The notes under the pieces are model-generated. The model saw only the letters and a program-made list of their open reading frames with translations, was not told where the DNA came from and ran no database searches. From positions 2,356,001-2,420,000 of the forward strand of contig NZ_CP077077.1 of assembly GCF_019139675.1 (NCBI RefSeq): DNA of 64,000 nucleotides. Reading direction: 5' to 3'. The translations under genes and the position numbers were made by a program. Positions 17,252 through 62,812 of this stretch are shown piece by piece; the first letter of the stretch is position 1; the number at the start of each line of letters is the position of its first letter. This DNA is from Pseudomonas maumuensis. GTDB taxonomy: Bacteria > Pseudomonadota > Gammaproteobacteria > Pseudomonadales > Pseudomonadaceae.

Positions 17252-17554
17252 ATGGGTGCTCTGACGAAAGCTGAGATGGCCGAAAGGCTGTACGAGGAGC
17301 TGGGGCTTAACAAGCGTGAGGCCAAGGAGCTGGTCGAGCTGTTTTTCGAAGAAATTCGGCACGCGCTTGAAGACAACGAGCAGGTCAAGTTGTCCGGTTT
17401 CGGCAACTTCGACCTTCGCGACAAACGCCAGCGGCCGGGCCGCAACCCTAAAACAGGGGAAGAGATCCCGATCACCGCGCGCCGCGTCGTCACCTTTCGT
17501 CCAGGGCAGAAGCTGAAAGCCCGGGTAGAGGCCTATGCTGGAACCAAGCCATAA
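17252..17554 (+). CDS. ihfA: Integration host factor alpha subunit
   Basis: 100 aa, full family length. An HU/IHF fold with the DNA-intercalating arm ([10 protein letters not shown]) and the conserved [12 protein letters not shown] segment. With IhfB it bends DNA at specific sites and helps promoters, recombination and replication. It begins four bases after pheT and its 3' end overlaps the downstream MerR gene by 20 bp, so the three are co-transcribed. Confidence 0.98.
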
Positions 17555-17891
17555 CGACGAGCTGCCCCCCATCCCGGGCAAACGCTACTTCACCATCGGT
17601 GAAGTCAGCGAGCTCTGTGCGGTAAAACCGCACGTGCTGCGCTACTGGGAGCAGGAATTCACGCAGCTCAACCCGGTGAAGCGCCGTGGCAACCGGCGGT
17701 ATTATCAGCGCCAGGACGTGCTGATGATCCGCCAGATCCGCGCTTTGCTGTATGACCAGGGCTTTACCATTGGCGGAGCGCGGTTACGGCTCTCCAGTGA
17801 TGAGGTCAAGGATGAGTCCAGCCAGTACAAGCAGCTGATTCGGCAGATGATTGCGGAGTTGGAGGATGTGTTGGTGGTGCTCAAGAAGTGA
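17535..17891 (+). CDS. MerR-family regulator linked to ihfA
   Basis: 118 aa. An N-terminal winged helix-turn-helix ([21 protein letters not shown]) is followed by a coiled dimerisation helix. No C-terminal metal- or drug-binding domain or cysteine cluster is present, so it is a minimal MerR of the type regularly found beside ihfA in Pseudomonas. The start overlaps the end of ihfA by 20 bp in another frame; CGGGTAGAGG lies upstream. Target genes unknown. Confidence 0.92.
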
Positions 17892-17990
17892 CCTGGTTGG
17901 CGACGAGTGGAAATTTTTGAAAAAAAGCTTCCATTATTCAAAAGGTTAGGTTAAATTCTTCAACGTTCTCAGCAGTATCGAGAATGATGT

Positions 17991-18067
17991 CGGGGCGTAG
18001 CGCAGCCCGGTAGCGCACTTGCATGGGGTGCAAGGGGTCGAGTGTTCGAATCACTCCGTCCCGACCA
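17991..18067 (+). tRNA. tRNA-Pro(GGG)
   Basis: 77 nt with CCA encoded. The acceptor stem CGGGGCG pairs with CGTCCCG (one G-T pair), the anticodon stem CTTGC/GCAAG holds loop ATGGGGT giving anticodon GGG, and the T arm is GAGTG TTCGAAT CACTC. It reads Pro codons CCC/CCT. The gene is complete and lies beside an integrase pseudogene, consistent with use as an integration site. Confidence 0.98.
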
Positions 18068-30173: not shown

Positions 30174-30292
30174 AGGGGCCGCTGCGCGCCCCATCGCCGG
30201 CAAGCCGGCTCCCACAGGGATGGCGCTGGCTTGAAGGCGCTGCGGTAGGGGTGGGAGCCGGCTTGCCGGCGATGGGCTGCAACGCAGCCCCA
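30174..30292. repeat. Inverted REP pair between mtlR and mtlE
   Basis: The left unit carries CATCGCCGGCAAGCCGGCTCCCAC. The right unit, about 45 bp away, carries the inverse (GTGGGAGCCGGCTTGCCGGCGATG). Each is bordered by its own GC hairpin (GGGGC...GCCCC; GGGCTGCAACGCAGCCC). It fills the mtlR-mtlE gap; the mtlE promoter should lie between the pair and mtlE. Confidence 0.88.
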
Positions 30293-31979: not shown

Positions 31980-33659
31980 TCAACTCACCCCAGCCAACCG
32001 CTTGATCTGCTCGGCAAAATCCTTCTCGGCAATCTTCACCTCCACCAGTACCGGCCGCTGCACCACCATCAGCAACTGTGGCAGCAGCCGCTCCAACTCC
32101 TCCACCGTCTCCACTCGATACCCCAGCGCGCCGTAACCTGTTGCCAGCGCCGTATAGTCCAGCGCGGGCAGGGTATCGAACGGCGCGAATTCACCGTCGG
32201 GCGTAAACGCGTCAGGGTCGACGAAGGCTTGCTCGATCGCATACACCTGGTTGCTCATCACGAACACCACGGCATTGATCTTGTTGCGCGCCAGCGCCGC
32301 CAGGGACTGGCTGACCATCATGAACCCGCCATCGCCGGCCACCACTACCGGGCGTCGGCCGCTACCCAGCGCCACGCCCAGGGCGCAGCCGGTCTCATGG
32401 CCGAGCGAGCCCCAGATGGCATCGGAGATGAAACTGCCGCGGGGCATGCCATTGATGTTGCTGGCCACGTACAGCGACGAGCTTTCGCCGAGGATCAGCG
32501 TGCTGGTCTGCCACAGACGATGCTCCTGGGCAAAACTCACCAGGCTGTCGAAGAAGCTTGCATAGCTCAGTGCGCTGGGCACCGCGCCACTGCCCAGCAG
32601 CGGGCGCGAGGCGGCCAGGGCGGTACTCGGTCGGGGGAACTGGGTGTCCACCTTCAGGGCCTTGAGCAGGGCCTCGACATAGTCGGGCAGGCGCACGTTG
32701 GGGTAGTAGTCGGCGCCGGCGCGTGCCAGCTCGCAGTTCACCTGGACGATTTCGCCATAGCGGGCCTTGAGCAGGTCGAGGTAGTCGTCGGTGAAGATCA
32801 CGCCGATGGCCAGGATGCAGTCGCAGGCATCCACCCGCGCCGAGGTTTCCGGGCGCGAGGCGGGGCCGGCGTAGGTGCCGATGAACGGCGCCTGGCTTTC
32901 GTCGAGCACGGTCTTGGCGTCGAGGGTGGTGGAGAAGGGCAGGCCACAGCTGTCGATCAGGCGTTGCACGGCGTCCTGCAAACCGTAGCGGATGATCTCC
33001 ACGCCCAGCAGTACCAAAGGCTGGCGCGCCGTGGCCAGGCGTTGCACGGTGGCCTCGACCAGGCTTTGCAAGGCTTGGGGGTTGGACGGGCGCGGCGCCG
33101 GGGTCAGTTGGCCGTGGGGGCGGCTGACTTCGGCGCCCCAGATGTCCTGGTAGGCCTCCAGATAAATGGGCTGGCGGTGGGTGAGGGCGGCGATCAGCGC
33201 ATTGTCGATCTGCCAGGGCGCGCGGTGCGGGTCGGACAGAATCTCGCAGGCCACGGTCACCTGCTCCAGCACGTTGCGGTCGGCCTCGAAATTGCCGGTG
33301 GAATGGTGGAACAGCACGTTCTGGGCATTGGCCTTGAGGCGGTCGCTGGTCGAGGGGCTGGCGGAGATCACCACCACCGGGTTGCGCTCCACGTACGCAC
33401 CGGCGATGGCGTTCACCGCGCTGAAGGTGCCCACGCCGTACTGCAGCGACACCGCGCCCAGGCCATGTACCCGGGCATAGCCATCAGCGCTGTAGGCGGC
33501 GCCCATCTCGTAGACTTCGCCCACGGCGTCGATACCGTCGAAGGCGTCCAGGGCACTCATGAATTTGGAGCAGTAATCCCCCGGCACCTGGAACACCTTG
33601 TCCAGGCCCAGTTCCTTGAGCCGGGTCAGCAGGTAGTCGGCCACGGTAAAAGTGCTCAT
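31980..33659 (-). CDS. TPP-dependent 2-oxo-acid decarboxylase (pyruvate/indolepyruvate decarboxylase type)
   Basis: 559 aa. Three domains of the PDC family are visible. The N-terminal pyrimidine-binding domain has the activating glutamate (E51 in VYEMGAA) and the His pair typical of true decarboxylases (H118-H119 in LFHHSTG). The C-terminal domain has the GDGG-start TPP/Mg motif. Such enzymes turn a 2-oxo acid into the aldehyde one carbon shorter. The ATG overlaps the oxidase stop by ATGA, so its substrate is most likely the 2-oxo acid made by that oxidase. The length equals that of the 2-ketoarginine decarboxylase AruI as I recall it, but indolepyruvate or phenylpyruvate are also possible. 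Confidence 0.88.
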   Translation of the reverse strand: MSTFTVADYLLTRLKELGLDKVFQVPGDYCSKFMSALDAFDGIDAVGEVYEMGAAYSADGYARVHGLGAVSLQYGVGTFSAVNAIAGAYVERNPVVVISASPSTSDRLKANAQNVLFHHSTGNFEADRNVLEQVTVACEILSDPHRAPWQIDNALIAALTHRQPIYLEAYQDIWGAEVSRPHGQLTPAPRPSNPQALQSLVEATVQRLATARQPLVLLGVEIIRYGLQDAVQRLIDSCGLPFSTTLDAKTVLDESQAPFIGTYAGPASRPETSARVDACDCILAIGVIFTDDYLDLLKARYGEIVQVNCELARAGADYYPNVRLPDYVEALLKALKVDTQFPRPSTALAASRPLLGSGAVPSALSYASFFDSLVSFAQEHRLWQTSTLILGESSSLYVASNINGMPRGSFISDAIWGSLGHETGCALGVALGSGRRPVVVAGDGGFMMVSQSLAALARNKINAVVFVMSNQVYAIEQAFVDPDAFTPDGEFAPFDTLPALDYTALATGYGALGYRVETVEELERLLPQLLMVVQRPVLVEVKIAEKDFAEQIKRLAGVS

Positions 33660-35410
33660 GGCTTGATCCCCGCGCAGATGGCCTGGGTGATGTCGTCGAG
33701 CACCTGCGGCGCATGGCTGGGCATGGGCGGGGTGGCGTAGTCGATCTCTTCCGGTGCCGGGGTCGGCAGCAGCTGGTAGCTGGCCGGCAGCCAGTTGGGG
33801 CGCGGCAGTTCGAAGAACTCCTGCAAGGCGGACTCGGCGGTGGTCAGCGCGCCTTCGACCCAACCCTGGCCATAGGAATACGCTTCGCCGACGATGAACA
33901 CCTGCTGGTCTTTCACCGGATGGCGCATCTTCTGGATGATCAGGTCCAGGCGGTAGTTGGCCTTCCACTCGTGCCAGCCGCCACCATACGGGTCGGCGTC
34001 CCAGGCGTGGTACACGGCGCTGTAGGGCGCCGGCAGTTCGACCTGGGCGTGCAGTTGGGTGACCTGGCGCTGGGCAATGCGCACCATTTCGTCGCTTATC
34101 TGGAATTGCGTGCGCGGCACCACCGCATCGTTGGCGATGCGCCCTTCGAGGCTGCGCGGGGTGTAGCCGATGAATTCGGGGCCGTCTTCCAGGCCTTTCC
34201 AGAACGGCACGGTGCCGATGTCGTTGTAGGAGGCCATCAGCAGCGAGTTGAAGGTGTTCTCGCCACCGGCTTGATCGCACTCCGTGCCCATGTAGTAGCA
34301 CTGGCGGATGGGCAGGTCGGTGACCGAGCGCCCGGCCACCAGGCCCAGGTTGCGCCACCAGGGTTGCTCATAGGCCAGGAACAGCTTGAACGCCGACTGC
34401 ACCAGCACCGAGCCGAGGTTGTCCTTGAGCCACGGGTCGTCGAACAGCGGCGAGTCGATCAGCTCCAGCGCGCGGCGCGGCAGGGCGAGGATGACCTGGC
34501 GGGCGTGGATGATGTCCTCGCCTTCGAGGTCGTGGGTCTTGCCGTTGACGGTTTCGGTGTGGCGCAGGTGCAGGCGGTAGGGGTACTCGGTGTCGTCGCT
34601 GTAGCTCAGGGCGGCCAGGCGACGGTTCATCTGGATACGCTGATCGGCGGGCACCAGGCCGCCGGCCTGTTCGCTGAAACGCTGAGCCAGGGTCAGCGGC
34701 AGGCTCTGGAAACCATCCTTGAGCGTGCGGAACACGGTGGCGTCGCTGTACTCGGTGGCGGGCAGCTGGGTCACGGCGCTGGCGTTGGCGACGTTGGCCT
34801 CGTAGCCGCCGGCGTCCTTCATGAACTGGTAGCCCTCGTTGCTCAGCACGCGGTAGAGCAAGTCCCAGAAGCCGTAGCGCCAGATCGGTTTGCCGAACAC
34901 TTGCACCTGCATCTGCTCGGCCAGGCTCAGCTTGTCGAAACCGGGGTAGATGCTGTTCATCACGTTGACCTGGAGGTCTTCGGGGTTGTAGCCGCGCTCG
35001 GTCCAGCCCAGGTCGTAGGGAACCTTGTGCGGCGCCTCGACGAAGTCGCGGAAACGGAAGCGCTGGCCACGCAGGTAGAACAGGTTGTCCTGGGCGCCGA
35101 TGGGCGCGTCCTTGGGCAGTTCGTTGCCCATGGGGAAGTCCTTGCTCGGCAGGCCCAGGTGCTGCACCAGGGTGTCGACCATCACATGGCCGTCGGCGCC
35201 GGGCATGTAGCGCATGCCGCCCACCTCGGCGACCACGTTGGGCAGGCCGGGCAACTTGACGCTGAACAGCCGCCCGCCGATGCGGTCGCCGTATTCGAAC
35301 AACTGGATACGCATGCTGTCGCCGTGGGCCTGTTGCAGGCGCCAGGCGCTGTAGGTACCGGAGACACCGCCGCCGATGATGGCGACGTCCAAGGGTTGGG
35401 GCTGGCTCAT
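33656..35410 (-). CDS. FAD-dependent amine oxidase family, probable L-amino-acid oxidase
   Basis: 584 aa from ATG 35410. The dinucleotide-binding motif IIGGGVSGTYSAW sits at residues 11-23, GGRLFS follows in the usual place, and the C-terminal FAD-contacting segment with WVEGAL is present. No signal peptide is seen. The family (monoamine oxidase, L-amino-acid oxidases, tryptophan 2-monooxygenase) oxidises an alpha-amino group to an imine or 2-oxo acid. It is coupled to the decarboxylase by an ATGA overlap, giving a two-step amino acid to aldehyde route. Arginine is an attractive substrate because an arginine oxidase/2-ketoarginine pathway has been described in P. putida, but this is inference. 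The 272-bp gap to 35682 holds the divergent promoters. Confidence 0.85.
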   Translation of the reverse strand: MSQPQPLDVAIIGGGVSGTYSAWRLQQAHGDSMRIQLFEYGDRIGGRLFSVKLPGLPNVVAEVGGMRYMPGADGHVMVDTLVQHLGLPSKDFPMGNELPKDAPIGAQDNLFYLRGQRFRFRDFVEAPHKVPYDLGWTERGYNPEDLQVNVMNSIYPGFDKLSLAEQMQVQVFGKPIWRYGFWDLLYRVLSNEGYQFMKDAGGYEANVANASAVTQLPATEYSDATVFRTLKDGFQSLPLTLAQRFSEQAGGLVPADQRIQMNRRLAALSYSDDTEYPYRLHLRHTETVNGKTHDLEGEDIIHARQVILALPRRALELIDSPLFDDPWLKDNLGSVLVQSAFKLFLAYEQPWWRNLGLVAGRSVTDLPIRQCYYMGTECDQAGGENTFNSLLMASYNDIGTVPFWKGLEDGPEFIGYTPRSLEGRIANDAVVPRTQFQISDEMVRIAQRQVTQLHAQVELPAPYSAVYHAWDADPYGGGWHEWKANYRLDLIIQKMRHPVKDQQVFIVGEAYSYGQGWVEGALTTAESALQEFFELPRPNWLPASYQLLPTPAPEEIDYATPPMPSHAPQVLDDITQAICAGIKP

Positions 35411-35682
35411 CGCAAATTCCCTTTTGTTGTGTGTGGGCAAGGAATCCATGTGACGAGCCAGTATTGTCGAGGTTTGGCGGAATGCCAGTTTGCCACTATC
35501 AAATAGTGGGGATTGCTCCAGCCCCTTTGGATACCCTGCGCGAGCGGTCCAATCAGGGGGCTCTGGCGGGCCTCGGCTAATGCGTGCCAGCTGATCCCGA
35601 CGCGCCAACCCAGGGTACTGCTGGTGGCAATTTGCCTGTAATCTGTCGTTTTTCGTAACACTCAGGCAAGGATTGCGTAGGC

Positions 35683-38600
35683 ATGTTCTCGTTCACCCAG
35701 GAAAAAAGTCTGGTCGTCGACTTGGAAGTCAACCCCGCCAAACCGGGCAAACCGGAACAGATCTTCAAAGTGGGGGCGCTGCGCAAGGATCTCGAGGTCG
35801 AGCTCGAGTGCAATGTGGACAAGGACCTGCCCCAGGTGCTGGCCAAGGTGGATGACATGGTCGAGGGTGCCGACTGCCTGCTGGGCCACAACCTTATCCA
35901 GCATGACCTGCGAATCCTGCGCCAGCAGGCGTCCACCCTGGCGCTGCATGAGCTGCCAGCCATCGATACCTTGCATCTGTCCCCTCTGGCATTCCCACGC
36001 AATCCTTATCACCGCCTGGTGAAAGACTACAAACTGGTACGCGACACCCTCAACTCGCCGTTGGCCGATTGCCACCTGACACTCACCCTGTTCCAAGACC
36101 AGCGTGAGGCGTTCGCGCAGTTGTATCAGACAGAGCCTGCAGAGTTGTTGTGCTACCAGGCCTTGCTGGCGCCGACTTCGGCGCAGGATGCCGGTTTGTT
36201 CGCATCGCTCACGGGGCGTGCATCGGTTGGCGTGGATGAGATCAGGCCGCTGATCCTGCAGCAGCTGGCGGACACCGACAGCCAGGCCAAGCGCGACCTC
36301 AAGGTATGCCGCGAGCGGTTGGAAAAGTTGCTCGACGAGGACTTGCTTGACAGCAGTCAGCACCTGTCGCTGGCGTATGCGCTGGCGTGGTTGCGCGTAT
36401 CGGGAGGCAACTCGGTACTGGCGCCCTGGGTCAGGCACCAGTTCCCCAGGGTAGGCGAGTTGATTGCCCAGTTGCGCGACGTTCCTTGTGCCCGCGAGGA
36501 TTGCCAGTACTGCCTCACCACCCATGATCCTCATCACGAGCTCAAGCGCTATTTCGGCCACCCGGACTTTCGGCGTGACGCGAACGGCCAAAGCCTGCAG
36601 CGCGACATCACCCTGGCCGGCATGCGTGGCAAGCATGTGCTGGCGGTTATGGCTACCGGCGGGGGCAAGTCGATTGCCTACCAGGTGCCGGCGCTCAACC
36701 GATTCCATCGCAATGGCAGCCTGACCATCATCGTCTCGCCACTGCAATCGCTGATGAAGGACCAGGTTGATGGCATGAGGGACAAGGGTATCCAGTGTGC
36801 CGAAATGTTCAATGGCCAGCTCAGCATGCTGGAGCGGGCGGAGGTACTGGAGAAGGTTCGGCTGGGCGATATCGGCATTCTGCTGGTGTCACCCGAGCAG
36901 TTTCGCAACAAGGCGTTCCGCAGTGCCATCGAGCAGCGCCAGGTGGGTGGCTGGATCTTCGATGAGGCCCATTGTCTTTCGAAGTGGGGCAATGACTTGC
37001 GCCCAGACTACCTCTACGCCGCCCGCTACATCGCACAGTACAGCGGTGGCAGGAAGCCAGCGCCCATCGGTTGTTTCACCGCCACGGCAAAACCGGAGGT
37101 GCTGGCGGACATCCGCAGTCATTTCAAGGAGACTCTGCGGGTCAAGTTCGAGGAATTCCTCGGCAGCCATGAGCGTACCAACCTTAACCTCGAGGTGATG
37201 GCCTGCAACCGTGCCGAGAAGTGGCCACGGGTGCTGCGCTTGCTGGAGGACTACCTGGGCGACCAGCCGGGCGGCGCGGTGGTTTTCGTCGCCAGTCGCA
37301 AGGCGGCTGAGGACCTGGCTCGTTTCCTGAGCGACCAGGGGCTGGCCTGTCGGCACTTCCACGCAGGGCTGTCGTCGTCGAGCAAGCAGACGATCCAGAA
37401 CGATTTCATGGATGGCAAGGTCAAGACGATCATTGCCACCAACGCCTTTGGCATGGGGATCGACAAGCAGGATGTCCGTCTGGTGGTGCATGTAGACATT
37501 CCCGGGTCGCTGGAGAACTACCTGCAGGAGGCAGGTCGGGCCGGGCGCGACAATGTCACAGCACACTGTGTGCTGCTGTATGACCCGCAGGACATCGAGA
37601 CACAGTTCGGGCTCTGTGAGCGGGGTTGTGTAAGTCAGCGCGATATCCAGCAAATCCTCGATAAGCTGCGTAAGGACTATGAGAACCGTCAAGGCCGGGA
37701 CCTGGTCATCACTGCCGGTGAGATCCTGATGGATGGCAACGTTCACACGTCCTTCGATGCCGATGCCGCCGATGCCGAGACGAAGGTGGTGACCGCCATC
37801 GCCTGGCTGGATCGCGGTGACTATCTCAAGCGGGAGGAAAATCACACGCAGATCTTTCCTGCCAAACCCGCGGTATCTCTCGAAAAGGCGCAGGAGCGCT
37901 TGCGGGACGCGAAATTGTCCGAGCGCCGCCGTGCCGAATACATGGCGATTCTGCGCTACCTCCATGAGGCCACGCCCGACGAACGTGTCGACACCACCAA
38001 CCTGGGCAAATTGACCGGCCTTGAGCCGGAAGAGGTGGCCCAGACGCTCAAGGCCCTGGAAAAGCAGGGGCTGCTGGCCAACGATGCACGTTTCACCGTG
38101 ATGCTCGCCTATGGTGTGGCCAATCCCTCGCTGCAGCGTCTGCAGCAGTTGCGCAGCCTGGAGCAAGCGCTGCTCGCGACGCTGGCCGAGCAGGCGCCGG
38201 ACGCCGTCAACGCTGGCTGGAAGGACATCAACGTCACGGCGCTGACCGCCGCCCTGAAGGATCGCCTGCAACGCAAGGAATTGCTGCCTCTGCATGTCCT
38301 GCGCCTGTTGCGTGGGTTGGCGCCCGATCGCGATGGTCCTGCCAATCGAACCAGCAGTTTCGAGCTCAGGCAACTGAGCCATGACTACATCAGCGTGCAA
38401 ATCATTCACAAGCACGGTTGGCAGGGGCTTGTGCAGGACAGTGAAACACGTGGGCTGATCGCCGGCACGTTGCTGACCCACCTGCTCAAGCGTGTGAGCA
38501 CGCGTGGTAAGCGAATCATGATCGAGGCCACGTTCGGCGAGTTGGTCAAGCTGATCGAGGATGACCTGGAGCTTGGCCTGCGCGTGAGCAAGCACCGTGA

Positions 38601-40833
38601 CAAGTACATCGAGCGTGTGCTGTTGTTCCTCCATCGTCAGGAGGTGTTCACCCTCAACCAGGGTATGACCGTGATGCGCCGGGCGATGACCATCAAGGCC
38701 GTGGCGGGGCGCAACAAGTACCTCAACGAAGACTATCAGCGCCTCGACGAGCACTACCGCGAAAAGCGCATCCAGGTGCATGTGATGCGCGAATACGCCG
38801 AGCTGGCGTTGCATGAACCTAAACAGGCGCGGCAACTGCTTGCCGACTACTTCACGCTGACCAAGGAGCAGTTCCTGCGCGACTACTTCGCCGGCCGCGA
38901 AAACGTGCTCAGGTATGCGACCAGCGAGGCGTCGTGGCAGATGATCGTCGAGGCGTTGAGCCCGCCCCAGCGCGATATCGTCACCGATGAGCAAGACAGC
39001 AACACCCTGGTGCTTGCCGGGCCAGGCTCTGGCAAGACGCGGGTGATCGTACACCGCATCGCTTATCTGCTGCGAGTCAGGCGCGTGCCGCCGCGGGCCG
39101 TGGTGGCATTGACCTTCAACCGCCATGCCGCCAACGAAATCCGCAAGCGCTTGCTGGCGCTAGTGGGGGCCGATGCCCATGGGGTCAGCGTGATGACCTA
39201 CCACAGCCTGGCTATGCGCTTGACGGGCACACGCTTCCAGCGCGGCGAGCAGGTGGACGAGAAGGTGCTCAAAGGCTTGATGGCCGACGCGGTGTCGCTG
39301 CTCGAGGGGCCGTCAGTGGTCGAAGAGGAGGATGCCTTGAGCGACCGGGATGACGATCGCGAGGAGCATGACAACCTGCGTGCGTTGTTGCTGCGCGGCT
39401 ATCGCTACATCCTGGTGGACGAGTATCAGGACATCGACGAACTCCAGTACCGCCTGGTCAGCGCCCTGGCCGAGCGAGGCTCCACCGAGGAAGGCCGACC
39501 CTGCATCATGGCCGTGGGTGACGACGACCAGAACATCTATGCGTGGCGCGCCACCAACAACCAGTACATCGAGGACTTCCTCACGGACTACCACGCCGAC
39601 AACGCATACCTGGTGGAAAATTATCGTTCGAGCGGATACATCATCGCGGCCGCCAATCATTTGATTGGTTGCAATTCGCAGCGCCTCAAGCAACTGCGGC
39701 CCATCACCATCGACGCACGACGCCTGGGGGAAGCCCCCGGTGGTCAGTGGGAGGCGTTGGACCCGCAGCGCCGTGGGCAGGTGTTGCGCCTGTCCATCGA
39801 CCCCGGCGACCGTGACATCGGCAACCGCCAGGCGCAGGCCGCCATGCTCGAGTTGAAGCGGCTGCTGGAGCTGGAGCAGGGCGCGTGGGACGGTTGCGCG
39901 GTGTTGTCACGCACCCACCAGTTCCTCTGGCCAGTCCAGGCATGGTGCGAGCAGGCCGGCATCCCCTATCAGCTGGCGTCGGACAAGGACGGCGGCGTGC
40001 AGTTGAGTCGGCAGCGGGCCTTCGTCGCGGTGGTGGATCTGCTTGGATCGCACCAGCAGAACCTGACCGCCCGCCAGGCGCTCGAGCAGGCGCGATCAGT
40101 GCTCGATGTGTACTGGAGCGAGTTTTTCGAGGAGGCCTTCGAGCAGCTCGAAATGGAGTCGGGCGATGGCGAGTTGCCGAGTGGGAAAATTGTCGACTGG
40201 CTATACGACTACGCCCGGGAGATGCGTCAGCAGCGGTGCAAAGGGCTATACCTGGGAACGGTCCACTCGGCGAAAGGCCTGGAGTTCCGCCATGTCGTCC
40301 TGCTCGATGGCGGCTGGAACACCCAGGCCAAGACGCTCGACGATGAGCGGCGGCTTTACTACGTGGGCATGACGCGCGCCGAGCAGACACTGACGCTGTG
40401 CGAGTTCAACGCCAGCAACCCCTTCAGTGGATGCCTGCCGGCGAACGTGCCGCGCCAGGCGGTTAGCGCCCCTCATCGACCGGCGCTGGATACCCGGTAC
40501 CAGCAGTTGAGCCTCAAGGACATCGACATTGACCACCCCGGGCGCAAACCGGGCCAGCATGAGATGCATGCAGCCCTGCGCGAGATCAGGCCGGGTGCGC
40601 GCTTGCGCTTCCAGCACGACGGTGTGCGCTACCTGATGCTGGACGAGGCGGGACGAGAAGTGGGCAGGACCGCGCAAGCCTTCAAGCCTGGTTTCGCGGT
40701 CGAACAGTGCGAGGTCGCCGATATCGTGGTCCGCTACGATGAGGACAGCAAGGAGGAGTATCGCAAGCGGCTCAGGTGTGAACGTTGGGAACTGGTGGTG
40801 CCGCGAATCAGCGGCGTACCGCTGCAGGATTGA
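35683..40833 (+). CDS. Exonuclease-RecQ-UvrD multidomain helicase
   Basis: 1716 aa. Residues 1-140 look like a DEDD 3'-5' exonuclease: D13/E15 in VVDLEVNP, GHNLIQHD with D75, and D129 in the PLADCH segment. A cysteine cluster (CAREDCQYC, about 273-281) precedes a RecQ-type SF2 helicase with Walker A GGGKS (about 326) and DEAH at 427-430, then a winged-helix-like middle. The last third is a UvrD/Rep SF1 helicase with AGPGSGKT at 1112-1119, DEYQD near 1246, and a conserved end including GTVHSAKGLEF. It probably unwinds and trims DNA in repair or defence; this is inferred from domains. Single gene; GGCAAGGA lies upstream. No partner gene is evident. The exonuclease call is less certain than the two helicases. 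Confidence 0.9.
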   Translation: MFSFTQEKSLVVDLEVNPAKPGKPEQIFKVGALRKDLEVELECNVDKDLPQVLAKVDDMVEGADCLLGHNLIQHDLRILRQQASTLALHELPAIDTLHLSPLAFPRNPYHRLVKDYKLVRDTLNSPLADCHLTLTLFQDQREAFAQLYQTEPAELLCYQALLAPTSAQDAGLFASLTGRASVGVDEIRPLILQQLADTDSQAKRDLKVCRERLEKLLDEDLLDSSQHLSLAYALAWLRVSGGNSVLAPWVRHQFPRVGELIAQLRDVPCAREDCQYCLTTHDPHHELKRYFGHPDFRRDANGQSLQRDITLAGMRGKHVLAVMATGGGKSIAYQVPALNRFHRNGSLTIIVSPLQSLMKDQVDGMRDKGIQCAEMFNGQLSMLERAEVLEKVRLGDIGILLVSPEQFRNKAFRSAIEQRQVGGWIFDEAHCLSKWGNDLRPDYLYAARYIAQYSGGRKPAPIGCFTATAKPEVLADIRSHFKETLRVKFEEFLGSHERTNLNLEVMACNRAEKWPRVLRLLEDYLGDQPGGAVVFVASRKAAEDLARFLSDQGLACRHFHAGLSSSSKQTIQNDFMDGKVKTIIATNAFGMGIDKQDVRLVVHVDIPGSLENYLQEAGRAGRDNVTAHCVLLYDPQDIETQFGLCERGCVSQRDIQQILDKLRKDYENRQGRDLVITAGEILMDGNVHTSFDADAADAETKVVTAIAWLDRGDYLKREENHTQIFPAKPAVSLEKAQERLRDAKLSERRRAEYMAILRYLHEATPDERVDTTNLGKLTGLEPEEVAQTLKALEKQGLLANDARFTVMLAYGVANPSLQRLQQLRSLEQALLATLAEQAPDAVNAGWKDINVTALTAALKDRLQRKELLPLHVLRLLRGLAPDRDGPANRTSSFELRQLSHDYISVQIIHKHGWQGLVQDSETRGLIAGTLLTHLLKRVSTRGKRIMIEATFGELVKLIEDDLELGLRVSKHRDKYIERVLLFLHRQEVFTLNQGMTVMRRAMTIKAVAGRNKYLNEDYQRLDEHYREKRIQVHVMREYAELALHEPKQARQLLADYFTLTKEQFLRDYFAGRENVLRYATSEASWQMIVEALSPPQRDIVTDEQDSNTLVLAGPGSGKTRVIVHRIAYLLRVRRVPPRAVVALTFNRHAANEIRKRLLALVGADAHGVSVMTYHSLAMRLTGTRFQRGEQVDEKVLKGLMADAVSLLEGPSVVEEEDALSDRDDDREEHDNLRALLLRGYRYILVDEYQDIDELQYRLVSALAERGSTEEGRPCIMAVGDDDQNIYAWRATNNQYIEDFLTDYHADNAYLVENYRSSGYIIAAANHLIGCNSQRLKQLRPITIDARRLGEAPGGQWEALDPQRRGQVLRLSIDPGDRDIGNRQAQAAMLELKRLLELEQGAWDGCAVLSRTHQFLWPVQAWCEQAGIPYQLASDKDGGVQLSRQRAFVAVVDLLGSHQQNLTARQALEQARSVLDVYWSEFFEEAFEQLEMESGDGELPSGKIVDWLYDYAREMRQQRCKGLYLGTVHSAKGLEFRHVVLLDGGWNTQAKTLDDERRLYYVGMTRAEQTLTLCEFNASNPFSGCLPANVPRQAVSAPHRPALDTRYQQLSLKDIDIDHPGRKPGQHEMHAALREIRPGARLRFQHDGVRYLMLDEAGREVGRTAQAFKPGFAVEQCEVADIVVRYDEDSKEEYRKRLRCERWELVVPRISGVPLQD

Positions 40834-40871
40834 CCGTGGCGGCGTTGATCCGTGCGTCTGTTCGGGCAGGC

Positions 40872-41645
40872 TCAACCTGCCCGGAAGCGACGCAGGATCG
40901 ACGCCAGCGCCAGGGTCAACGCGACTGCCAACCCCATGGCCAGGCTGATGGTCAGGGCAACCCCTAGGCGCTCGAGCAGCGCGGCCATCGCCAGGTAGAA
41001 CGCAATCACCCCCACCGCGCCGATGGCATTGCCCCGCACCATCGCCGCCATTCCGGCGCGTCCGCCCTGCACGTGGGCGAACACCACCAACGGCCAGGCG
41101 ATCACCGGGATCGGCGCCAGCATGCCGCTGGTCGCCGGCCCCAGCCAACTGGCCAGACTGGTGGTGAGCATCAGCAGCGCGGTGGCTGACACCATGCGCA
41201 AAGGAATCTCCCAATACCGATGTTTGGGGCGGGCGAGGGTATCGGGCCTGGGTTCGCGGCCACTGGCGCGGATCAGCACGCCGATCAGCAGCAGTGCCAC
41301 GCCGATCGAAAGGTACAGCCCGCCCCAGTGCGTGAAGGCATAGGCTGCAAGGCCATAGAACAGGATCGCCAGCGATACCGCAGCAGCGATGCCGAGCTTG
41401 CGCGTGGCGAACAGGTAGAAGGTGTAGGTGGCTTGTACCGCCGCCAGGCCGCCCAGTGCTCCCGGCACCGCACCCAGGGCAAAGGCGCTGCCTTGTTCCA
41501 GGCACAGGAAGGTCATCACCAGCGCCGAGGTGATCGGCAGGCCGGACAGCAAGCCGCCGAGCAGGCCGCCCCAGCGTCGCGAGGCAAGGGAGATGGCCCA
41601 CATCAGCAGCGGGGTGACGAGGAGTTTCAGGTAGAAGAGGGTCAT
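40872..41645 (-). CDS. Integral membrane protein, function unknown
   Basis: 257 aa with about eight hydrophobic segments distributed over the whole length (for example LLVTPLLMWAISLAS; AAVSLAILFYGLAAYAF) and a basic C-terminus (SILRRFRAG). No transporter signature was recognised. Start at MTLFYLKLLV (41645) with a weak ribosome-binding site. It lies 64 bp downstream of the sulfhydrylase gene on the same strand and converges with the helicase gene; a small GC hairpin (40863-40883) sits at the convergence. Confidence 0.75.
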   Translation of the reverse strand: MTLFYLKLLVTPLLMWAISLASRRWGGLLGGLLSGLPITSALVMTFLCLEQGSAFALGAVPGALGGLAAVQATYTFYLFATRKLGIAAAVSLAILFYGLAAYAFTHWGGLYLSIGVALLLIGVLIRASGREPRPDTLARPKHRYWEIPLRMVSATALLMLTTSLASWLGPATSGMLAPIPVIAWPLVVFAHVQGGRAGMAAMVRGNAIGAVGVIAFYLAMAALLERLGVALTISLAMGLAVALTLALASILRRFRAG

Positions 41646-41709
41646 TGCACGCAGTTCCGGTTCTGCAAGGGATGCGCCCGCCGTCGGCATTGGGTGGGGC
41701 GCGAGTGGA

Positions 41710-44065: not shown

Positions 44066-44150
44066 ATGCAGGCCATCGCTGGCAAGCAGCTCCCACATGT
44101 ACAGCGCCGATCACAAGGCATGCGCAATACCTGTGGGAGCCGGCTTGCCG
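44066..44150. repeat. REP-type repeats between the SCO-cytochrome and multicopper oxidase genes
   Basis: Two oppositely oriented units: the left carries GGCAAGCAGCTCCCACA, the right TGTGGGAGCCGGCTTGCCG, with a GCCTGCGATGCAGGC hairpin beside the left one. They fill most of the gap of about 170 bp. Confidence 0.8.
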
Positions 44151-61454: not shown

Positions 61455-62714
61455 TGTATGGACTTGAGACATCGCTGACACATGTGCGGGGACATGGTGG
61501 ACACATTATCGCTTACCGTCGGGGTTGTTGAAGTCGATGGTTCGCAGCTTGTGCTGGCAGAAGTAAACATCAAAATGGTCAGGCCCTTGATCGCTGCGGC
61601 GGAGCGCCAACACATAGCCTGCTAGCGCCTTGGCTATCCGAAATGAGCGTTTCTTGAAGCGGAACTGACTGCTGTAGGGTTTCACCAAAATATCATCGGG
61701 ACCGTATTCAACGGGCGGTAGACGGCTTGGGAAAGCCCGCCTGCTCATCTGGTAGCGATCTGCCGGTACTTTGTAGCCCAACTGCTGATGAGGACGCTTG
61801 TAGTTGTAAATGCCCCGCCAGAGGTCGAAAGCTTCTTGCGCTTCTCGCAGATCCCGAAAACTGCGCCCGGTTAGTACCTCGGCCTTGAGCGTCCGGTGGA
61901 ATCGCTCATCCTTGCCATTGGTTTGTGGGTGGCCTGGCCTGCTGAAAGTCAGTCGAATTCCCAGACGAACCAGCCAGATACCTAGCGGTGTGAGTTCTCC
62001 GGGATTTCTTGGCGCCCCCAGGGCGAGCCATTATCCGCGTTGATCTGCACGGGCAGTCCATACCGGCTGAACAGATCGGTCAGGTGCTCCATGACCAACC
62101 CTGTGCGCTGATGTGTGCAGGCCTGTATCACAAGGTTAAAGCGTGAGTGGTCATCAATCAGCGTCAGCGGATAACAAGGTCCCTGAGCCGTTTGGAAGAA
62201 ACCTTTAAAATCGATCTGCCACAGATCATTCGGGGCTTCGCGCTCAAAGCGTGTCCATGGTTTAGCCGCCTCGGAGGCCTCCGCGGTGATCAATCCATGC
62301 CGATGCAGGACATTGGTTACGGTACTGGCACAGATGCGCTGATCAAGCAGGTGACTGATCTTTCGGCCACCCCACGTGGAGTGCTCCTTACGGATGGCAA
62401 TCACTTCCTCTTCTAGCCCAGGCTGAGTCTTGCGAGGGCTGACGGCTGGCTTTCGAGAGCGCTCCTTCAAGCCGAGCAAGCCCTCCTGTCGAAATCGATT
62501 GAGCCATTTGTAACCCGTCTGAGGGCTAATGCCGAACCGGCGGCATAGCTCCCTCATATTGGCGCCCGGGTGATTGGCCAGGCTAACGAACTCTTCTCTT
62601 AAGCTCATGGCATCTCTCGCGTTCCAAGGCATGGTCGTATTCCCGGCAGATTGCTTGCCGAAAAGTGTCAACCATGTCTCCGCACACGTGTCCACCATGT
62701 GTCCGGTCCATACA
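61455..62714 (-). mobile_element. IS481-family insertion sequence, 1260 bp
   Basis: The ends are imperfect inverted repeats of about 50 bp starting TGTATGGAC and including TGTGCGG and GACATGGT. A 6-bp direct repeat CCAAGA flanks it (61449-61454 and 62715-62720), as expected for target duplication. Removing the element and one repeat restores ACTTTGGTCTTGGCCAAAGT on the complementary strand, the same hairpin as in the left arm of the large inverted repeat (60831-60850), which confirms the borders. Confidence 0.93.
61506..62632 (-). pseudogene. IS481-family transposase, split by a one-base frameshift
   Basis: The first frame, from ATG 62632, encodes a helix-turn-helix (LCRRFGISPQTGYKWLNRF) and two acidic residues of the DDE catalytic site (LWQIDFKG; LTLIDDHSRF), and stops at 61982. 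The remaining part (LVRLGIRLTFSRPGHPQTNG, then KDERFHR with the catalytic Glu, and the C-terminus ending NNPDGKR at 61506) is in the -1 frame. The switch lies at a run of five Gs near 62027, where six would give a continuous protein of about 375 aa. It is either a decayed copy or made by -1 frameshifting; IS481 members usually have one ORF, so decay is more likely. Confidence 0.88.
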
Positions 62715-62812
62715 CCAAGACCAAAGTAGGCCGCCGTAAGGGCGGAAAGGTGACTAAAAGTCGACATCACCTACGAATGTGCATACAAAAACCAAAACAA
62801 TAACCAAAGAAC

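Follow-up and report, generated by a model that had tools for sequence, protein, structure and literature searches.

A single gene in the chromosome of Pseudomonas maumuensis encodes a protein of 1716 amino acids (aa) in which a predicted DEDD exonuclease domain is followed by two complete helicase motors, one of the RecQ type (superfamily 2, SF2) and one of the UvrD type (superfamily 1, SF1). The gene lies in a 64,000-nucleotide stretch of contig NZ_CP077077.1 (positions 2,356,001 to 2,420,000 of the forward strand), referred to here as the window and numbered from its first nucleotide. Judged by sequence, the protein is a member of a coherent fusion family whose layout is conserved across phyla and, as far as literature searches with partly sampled listings show, an exonuclease-RecQ-UvrD fusion has not been described. 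Two complete motors of different superfamilies and a nuclease fold in one chain are an unusual combination, yet one that is conserved in a large family. The best reading of its role, a tentative one held at a little less than even confidence, is that of a stand-alone, horizontally moving helicase-nuclease that would act in genome defence. This reading draws on the patchy occurrence of the gene, an empty site in two relatives, copies on plasmids, the lack of a partner gene, the defence genes among its neighbors and the conservation of its catalytic residues.

Domain layout and catalytic residues

The gene and its parts occupy the following positions in the window.

35683..40833, + strand: whole gene, one intact open reading frame (ORF) of 1716 aa with an ATG start
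35683..36282, + strand: predicted DEDD (DnaQ-superfamily) exonuclease domain, residues 1-200 (conservation, AlphaFold2, Foldseek with VIA-align, mapping to Staphylococcus aureus DinG, SaDinG)
36001..36024, + strand: NPYHRLVK loop, residues 107-114 (conservation)
36052..36054, + strand: N124, at the catalytic-His position of DEDDh enzymes, H149 of SaDinG (alignment and SaDinG mapping)
36307..36513, + strand: cluster of C209, C269, C274 and C277, a putative Fe-S or Zn site ahead of RecQ
36541..37602, + strand: RecQ SF2 motor, residues 287-640 (Pfam, NCBIfam, motif conservation)
37603..38937, + strand: inter-motor bridge with predicted winged-helix-like units, residues 641-1085
38938..40422, + strand: UvrD/Rep SF1 motor, residues 1086-1580 (Pfam, NCBIfam, motif conservation)
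40423..40830, + strand: C-terminal tail, residues 1581-1716, the least constrained part (ratio of non-synonymous to synonymous substitution rates, dN/dS, 0.41)

Along the chain the order is thus exonuclease-like domain, four-cysteine segment, RecQ motor, winged-helix-like bridge, UvrD motor and tail. Residues were counted over 70 proteins, the query and 69 full-length relatives, taken from 80 fetched loci; the other 11 loci were excluded because a contig end or a broken frame had left them shorter than 1670 aa. An initial annotation made from the letters of the window had described one ORF with both motors behind a nuclease-like N-terminus, and the intact frame and its Pfam and NCBIfam matches bear this out. 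In the profile searches proposed with it, RecQ, UvrD and UvrD_C scored above their curated cut-offs and RNase_T fell below threshold.

The motor motifs proved near-invariant and lie where they had been placed. In the RecQ motor, the Walker A motif (325-330, with GGGKS at 326-330) retains K329 in 70/70 and S330 in 65/70 proteins, DEAH at 427-430 is identical throughout, and AGRAGRD is found at 617-623; the scores are 282.4 bits against a cut-off of 219.8 for TIGR00614 recQ_fam and, in Pfam, 85 against 26 for DEAD and 83.8 against 23.5 for Helicase_C. In the UvrD motor, K1118 of the Walker A motif AGPGSGKT (1112-1119) and D1246, E1247, Q1249 and D1250 of the DEYQD motif (1246-1250) are present in all 70 proteins and Y1248 in 69, with Pfam scores of 145.4 against 23 for UvrD-helicase (PF00580) and 53.5 against 25.6 for UvrD_C (PF13361). 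The cysteine cluster that had also been noticed is equally constant: each of the four residues is present in 70/70 proteins, and in 120/120 and 118-119/119 of those in the two database sets. Winged-helix-like units are predicted within residues 641-1085 from structural models with middling Z values (best 8.6), yet the Pfam RQC and HRDC domains found no match up to E 0.1, and among PDB sequences the bridge (residues 640-1090) had no match up to E 1 and no confident relative. Pfam matches up to E 0.1 were likewise lacking for a PD-(D/E)XK nuclease and for the RecQ-C zinc-binding domain behind the motor, a diverged form of which would escape this search.

The joint retention of the key motor residues, the acidic ligands of the exonuclease-like domain and the cysteines across the 70 proteins argues for one conserved machine and not for a chance fusion. 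A chance origin is ruled out by the occurrence of the layout in several phyla together with a dN/dS of 0.13 over the whole gene relative to the P. mosselii copy, which is 95% identical; in the cysteine segment the same comparison gives 0.04. The GC content at third codon positions is 0.80 in the gene and 0.84-0.90 in six neighboring genes. Scans for promoters and terminators at the gene returned counts at chance level.

The four acidic ligands expected of a DEDD exonuclease, D13, E15, D75 and D129, stand at the positions first proposed and are each identical in 70/70 proteins. In the larger database sets (239 proteins) they are kept in 225, 227, 238 and 239 cases respectively, the remainder being mostly gaps, and H69, the His of the HN motif, is kept in 238. 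Structure prediction, suggested at the outset for residues 1-300, was run with AlphaFold2 on residues 1-290 and returned a confident DEDD fold (mean predicted local distance difference test, pLDDT, 89.8). Among the matches listed, the top structural matches to residues 3-290 are S. aureus DinG, followed by DnaQ, Orn and PolC; in one such listing the highest-placed RNase D is at rank 12. The structural model therefore supports a DEDD fold despite the weak Pfam RNase_T score at the N-terminus (15.2 bits against a cut-off of 24, E 0.033).

The fold appears to belong to neither familiar subtype. Position 124, five residues before the last Asp, where DEDDh enzymes carry their catalytic His, is N in 64, S in 4 and A in 2 of the 70 proteins and N in 220, S in 18 and A in 1 of the 239; His never occurs. 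The position of the DEDDy Tyr (column 125, four residues before D129) is S, D, N or K in the 70 and S, D or N in the 239, and never Tyr. In the nearby loop, P108, Y109, H110, L112 and K114 are invariant and N107 is found in 65/70 proteins, while pLDDT is below 50 at residues 114-118. From this conservation the invariant PYHxLxK loop may be a stand-in for the absent DEDDh His, with H110 as a candidate general base. The same substitutions, with His replaced by Asn, Ser or Ala in 70/70 and 239/239 proteins and no Tyr in the DEDDy position, would also suit an exonuclease fold with little or no catalytic activity that acts as a sensor of DNA ends or 3' termini while the double motor strips, for example, invading strands, R-loops or RecA filaments. 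This alternative is improbable, given the retention of all four acidic ligands in the 70 proteins and nearly so in the 239, the persistence of the HN-motif His and the presence of an invariant Y-H loop on hand.

The exonuclease-then-RecQ order had been compared at the outset with that of human WRN, whose exonuclease is of the DEDDy type and whose motor is followed by RQC and HRDC domains. The order holds, as the RecQ motor is preceded by an exonuclease-like fold in one chain, and the RecQ cores of the two proteins align (E 7e-42). Unlike WRN, the fusion protein has no DEDDy Tyr and no Pfam match to RQC or HRDC, and it carries an added UvrD motor. Because the DEDDy Tyr is absent, the likeness is one of domain order only, and a WRN-type exonuclease was not upheld; DinG, DnaQ and Orn head the fold matches listed. 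WRN is missing from two listings of structural matches, although such absence proves nothing.

The motor of DinG is XPD-like and is not known to be accompanied by a second SF1 motor. In S. aureus DinG (PDB 9ii8, 8zef), the best structural match, an N-terminal DEDD-superfamily exonuclease likewise precedes an SF2 motor, and as a further difference the cysteine cluster of the fusion protein lies ahead of the motor. By our own mapping onto the available text of the SaDinG report, D10, E12, D95, D154 and H90 of SaDinG correspond to D13, E15, D75, D129 and H69 here, and SaDinG H149 is replaced by N124; the same text gives the direction of the DinG motor as 5'-3' (PMC12345164).

Among defence proteins, Hna is described in the available portion of its report as a single-protein anti-phage SF2 helicase and nuclease, a 3'-5' single-stranded DNA exonuclease with a C-terminal PD-(D/E)XK nuclease, for which unwinding was not seen and whose exonuclease is inhibited by ATP (PMC13381803). 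To that extent it resembles the fusion protein in combining SF2 helicase motifs with a DNA nuclease (here a predicted fold) in one chain, and differs from it in that the fusion protein has an N-terminal DEDD fold and an extra UvrD motor. Hna provides, by analogy, an earlier example of a helicase-like nuclease that serves phage defence as a single protein. The PADLOC models of GajB and of DpdF and PsyrT match the UvrD part and the RecQ part, respectively; unlike in Gabija, Dpd and PsyrT, none of GajA, Dpd proteins or PsyrA was recognised beside the window gene, where neighbors were named by reading. The bacterial DNA2-like helicase-nuclease Bad has a DNA2-type nuclease and a single motor. It shares with the fusion protein, whose metal is putative, a single-chain helicase-nuclease layout with four cysteines, which in Bad are ascribed to an Fe-S cluster in the accessible text (PMC7430649).

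Distribution, genomic site and mobility

Far from being an isolated case, the fusion belongs to a large family. A search with residues 1-290 returned 3995 proteins at E <= 0.001 from 6663 candidates, and 117 of the best 120 of these 3995 matches are 1680-1751 aa long. Where named, family members bear source labels such as 'RecQ family ATP-dependent DNA helicase' or similar. A split or two-gene form was sought with a search for shorter proteins (742 of 4716), the best 120 of which were largely fragments, many labelled 'partial', with no clear case among them. In one metagenome bin assigned to Myxococcales (L033, 520-2445), the start of the fusion frame is overlapped by another RecQ-like gene of ordinary appearance (642 aa).

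Occurrence is patchy. With the own genome counted each time, the gene is carried by 10 of 298 Pseudomonas genomes, 12 of 390 genomes of the order and 8 of 369 of the class, and a distant-mode search of E. coli found no DNA match. A fixed housekeeping context throughout Pseudomonas was not found, the carriers being few and their contexts variable. On a quick tree of the 70 proteins, the seven phyla require 15 label changes, against a possible minimum of 6, a pattern which suggests transfer; it is no more than suggestive because some rows of the tree are metagenome bins.

The P. maumuensis genome, a single contig, holds one full copy of the fusion gene together with separate frames that match its RecQ part and, at more than one place, its UvrD part (the names RecQ, UvrD and Rep being assigned by reading). 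The presence of these separate RecQ-like and UvrD/Rep-like frames in the chromosome indicates that the fusion gene is not the housekeeping copy. These observations bear on the main rival explanation, that of a mobile, accessory DNA-repair enzyme for crosslinks, collapsed forks or double-strand ends, with a job like that of the exonuclease-type DinG it resembles. Such a role is possible and would fit the architecture, but we consider it rather unlikely in view of a gene that is present in about 3% of the surveyed Pseudomonas genomes, that has no fixed gene context and that accompanies RecQ-like and UvrD/Rep-like genes already in the genome.

The genes flanking the copy in the window, named by reading, are as follows.

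33656..35410, - strand: FAD amine-oxidase-like gene
40872..41645, - strand: membrane-protein-like gene of 257 aa
41710..42987, - strand: O-acetylhomoserine-sulfhydrylase-like gene, on the far side of the empty site

In L128 of genome G025 and L133 of genome G009, two relatives neither of which is among the 10 Pseudomonas carriers, the amine-oxidase-like and sulfhydrylase-like genes are adjacent and the fusion gene is missing. L128 has 36 bp in place of window positions 35496-41674, and in L133 the two flanking matches are separated by 156 bp. Since L128 carries the 257-aa membrane gene at another place, the event was not a clean insertion of a single gene. The initial annotation had the gene standing alone in an accessory-looking stretch; it does stand alone, whereas the surroundings in the window read as ordinary metabolic genes and not as an accessory island, even though the stretch itself is absent from the two relatives.

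Among 72,556 plasmid records, 17 contain a relative of the gene, and in 16 of these the match spans 80% of the query or more; one of the 17 is typed as conjugative and six as mobilizable. Type I restriction-modification genes lie 0.9 kb from the copy on pALVIN01 and type I-D CRISPR genes about 4 kb from that on pTfr153, and one plasmid copy has a DNA topoisomerase gene and rnhA no more than about 2 kb away. A phage origin was considered and rejected, as none of 50,697 phage records covers 80% of the query; a scan of viral contigs gave two full-length copies. In one (L172, 327-13468), the copy lies at the left end of the contig, before genes read as repressor-like, Ner-like, MuA-like (716 aa) and MuB-like (245 aa), and is either cargo at the end of a Mu-like prophage or adjoining host DNA. 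In L173, a contig from a viral collection, an AbiEi-like gene overlaps the start of the gene by 4 nt in the gene call, and a large downstream pair reads as a restriction enzyme and a methyltransferase; the AbiEi-like protein is 43% identical to a stretch of L063.

The plasmid copies, the Mu-like early genes at the contig end and the nearby topoisomerase and rnhA might instead point to a gene that serves mobile elements, either as plasmid or prophage cargo suppressing competitors or as an aid to replication or transfer. This seems very unlikely: full-length copies are absent from the phage records and number two in the viral contigs, and the annotations of six plasmid stretches include no gene for a relaxase, mating-pair formation or a replication initiator (two further stretches being unannotated). 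A separate observation concerns L079 (1905-5340), where the three upstream genes read as Tn7-type TnsA, a TnsB-related gene and TnsC; the right flank is shared with L013.

Neighboring defence genes and proposed role

The PADLOC comparison of neighbors covered test sets of 388 proteins (73 loci) and 105 proteins (14 loci) and controls of 134 proteins (20 regions) and 135 proteins (18 of 19 fetched regions), the tallies for test and control alike being the best 25 families of each set. Left out were L001, whose context is that of the window, and L138, which repeats the L008 contig; hits in G476 (of the L010 lineage), G878 and G997 fell outside the fetched loci. None of the neighbor clusters is a recurring partner gene, the largest reading as signalling, ABC-transporter and dehydrogenase families.

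Matches in the first test set include Mokosh, BREX, Gabija, SIR2-HerA, Wadjet, PD-Lambda-1, PD-Lambda-2 and AbiEi. In L006, MkoA lies 10 nt downstream of the gene with MkoB next, and BrxA lies 2.3 kb away on the opposite side; BrxB matches one of 148 neighbor proteins, placed beside BrxA by reading. L015 holds GajA (1087 bits over positions 1-749 of the 752 of the model), and GajB matches one of 148 proteins over nearly the whole of its best model, its placement in L015 again being by reading; the GajA model also matches in 10 of 14 control genomes. SIR2 and HerA are found in L045, JetA/B/C in L075, AbiEi in L063, AbiLi in L030, PDC-S23 in L009, PDC-S05 in L032 and a NERD-UvrD protein in L050, while PDC-S36 lies downstream of the Stutzerimonas copy in L008, PDC-M41A at 3.4 kb in L010 and Cas4 at 9 kb in L017. 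Among the matches in the second test set were PDC-M09B, PDC-S11, PDC-S05, a methyltransferase and a type IV restriction enzyme. Of 30 neighbor candidates scanned singly, 11 had no match at the limits used. In the fusion protein itself, none of the best 25 of 88 matching families spans more than one motor.

Several observations weigh against a defence role. At least two genes of one named system occur beside 4 of 73 loci (L006, L015, L045 and L075), which is not clearly above background, and enrichment in defence islands is not claimed. The first control itself yielded ZorD/DpdE, PD-T4-6 and mad (best 25 of 62 families), which were read as generic SNF2 or kinase hits, and the second held Druantia DruE and matches to HmaB/PDC-M05. 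This DruE (L158) and a copy of the fusion gene lie 36 kb apart on one contig, so that the control region is not fully independent. Many copies, that of the window included, lie amid genes with housekeeping or metabolic readings, and the whole protein is covered by none of the PADLOC matches listed (best 25 of 88). In the catalytic domain, the usual DEDDh His is missing from every protein counted, and D13 is substituted in 3 and E15 in 1 of the 119 shorter database proteins. The anti-phage or anti-plasmid role put forward at the outset therefore stays plausible and is still the best reading, while the neighbor survey with its controls is suggestive only.

RecQ- and UvrD-family motors translocate 3'-5', and by family membership both motors of the fusion protein would move in this direction. 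As a defence enzyme, the protein would unwind foreign DNA that has ends or branches and trim it back from the 3' ends. At a fork, the motor bound to the leading-strand template would part the parental duplex and its partner, bound to the lagging-strand template, would strip away the newly made lagging strand, the two moving apart while the 3'-5' exonuclease chews the exposed leading 3' end; one protein could thereby dismantle replicating phage or plasmid DNA. Nuclease catalysis would have to rely on a general base that differs from the customary His, H110 being the candidate. A more far-reaching proposal, conceivable though doubtful, is that the family constitutes a large, unrecognised class of single-protein immunity with a third DEDD subtype, neither DEDDh nor DEDDy. 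In it the general base would have shifted into the invariant PYHxLxK loop, and a four-cysteine segment and a winged-helix bridge would lead to two 3'-5' motors that part the strands of an invading fork while the 3' end is eaten.

If immunity is the true role, a widespread single-gene system has been overlooked because its parts resemble housekeeping repair. If repair is the true role, a bacterial exonuclease-RecQ machine has reached the domain order of WRN with a different nuclease. In both cases, the invariant PYHxLxK loop poses the question of how DEDD catalysis may proceed with neither the usual His nor the usual Tyr.

Further observations on neighbors and the window

A RhuM-like protein (PADLOC PDC-S23/S05) lies beside the gene in L009 and L032 and probably, by reading, in L149, a coincidence that may be due to chance. 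Just upstream of the copy in L008 (8453-9379), a stretch that gene calling had passed over is 26% identical to the methyltransferase-like protein of L173.

Within the window, a MerR-like gene and a tRNA-Pro (ggg) occupy 17535-18067 (17.5-18.1 kb), and none of the genes beside this tRNA was recognised as a defence gene. A very similar MerR-like gene in P. guineae (L006, 23824-24180) edges a stretch that holds BREX, the fusion gene and Mokosh, and the tRNA-Pro may be a shared integration hotspot. A truncated-looking transposase-like ORF (262 aa, by reading) is found at 61982-62770 in a stretch of lower GC content at 60.6-62.8 kb. The segments 30175-30291 and 44074-44150 match multiple places in L128 and L133 in both orientations and are possibly REP/BIME-like repeats.
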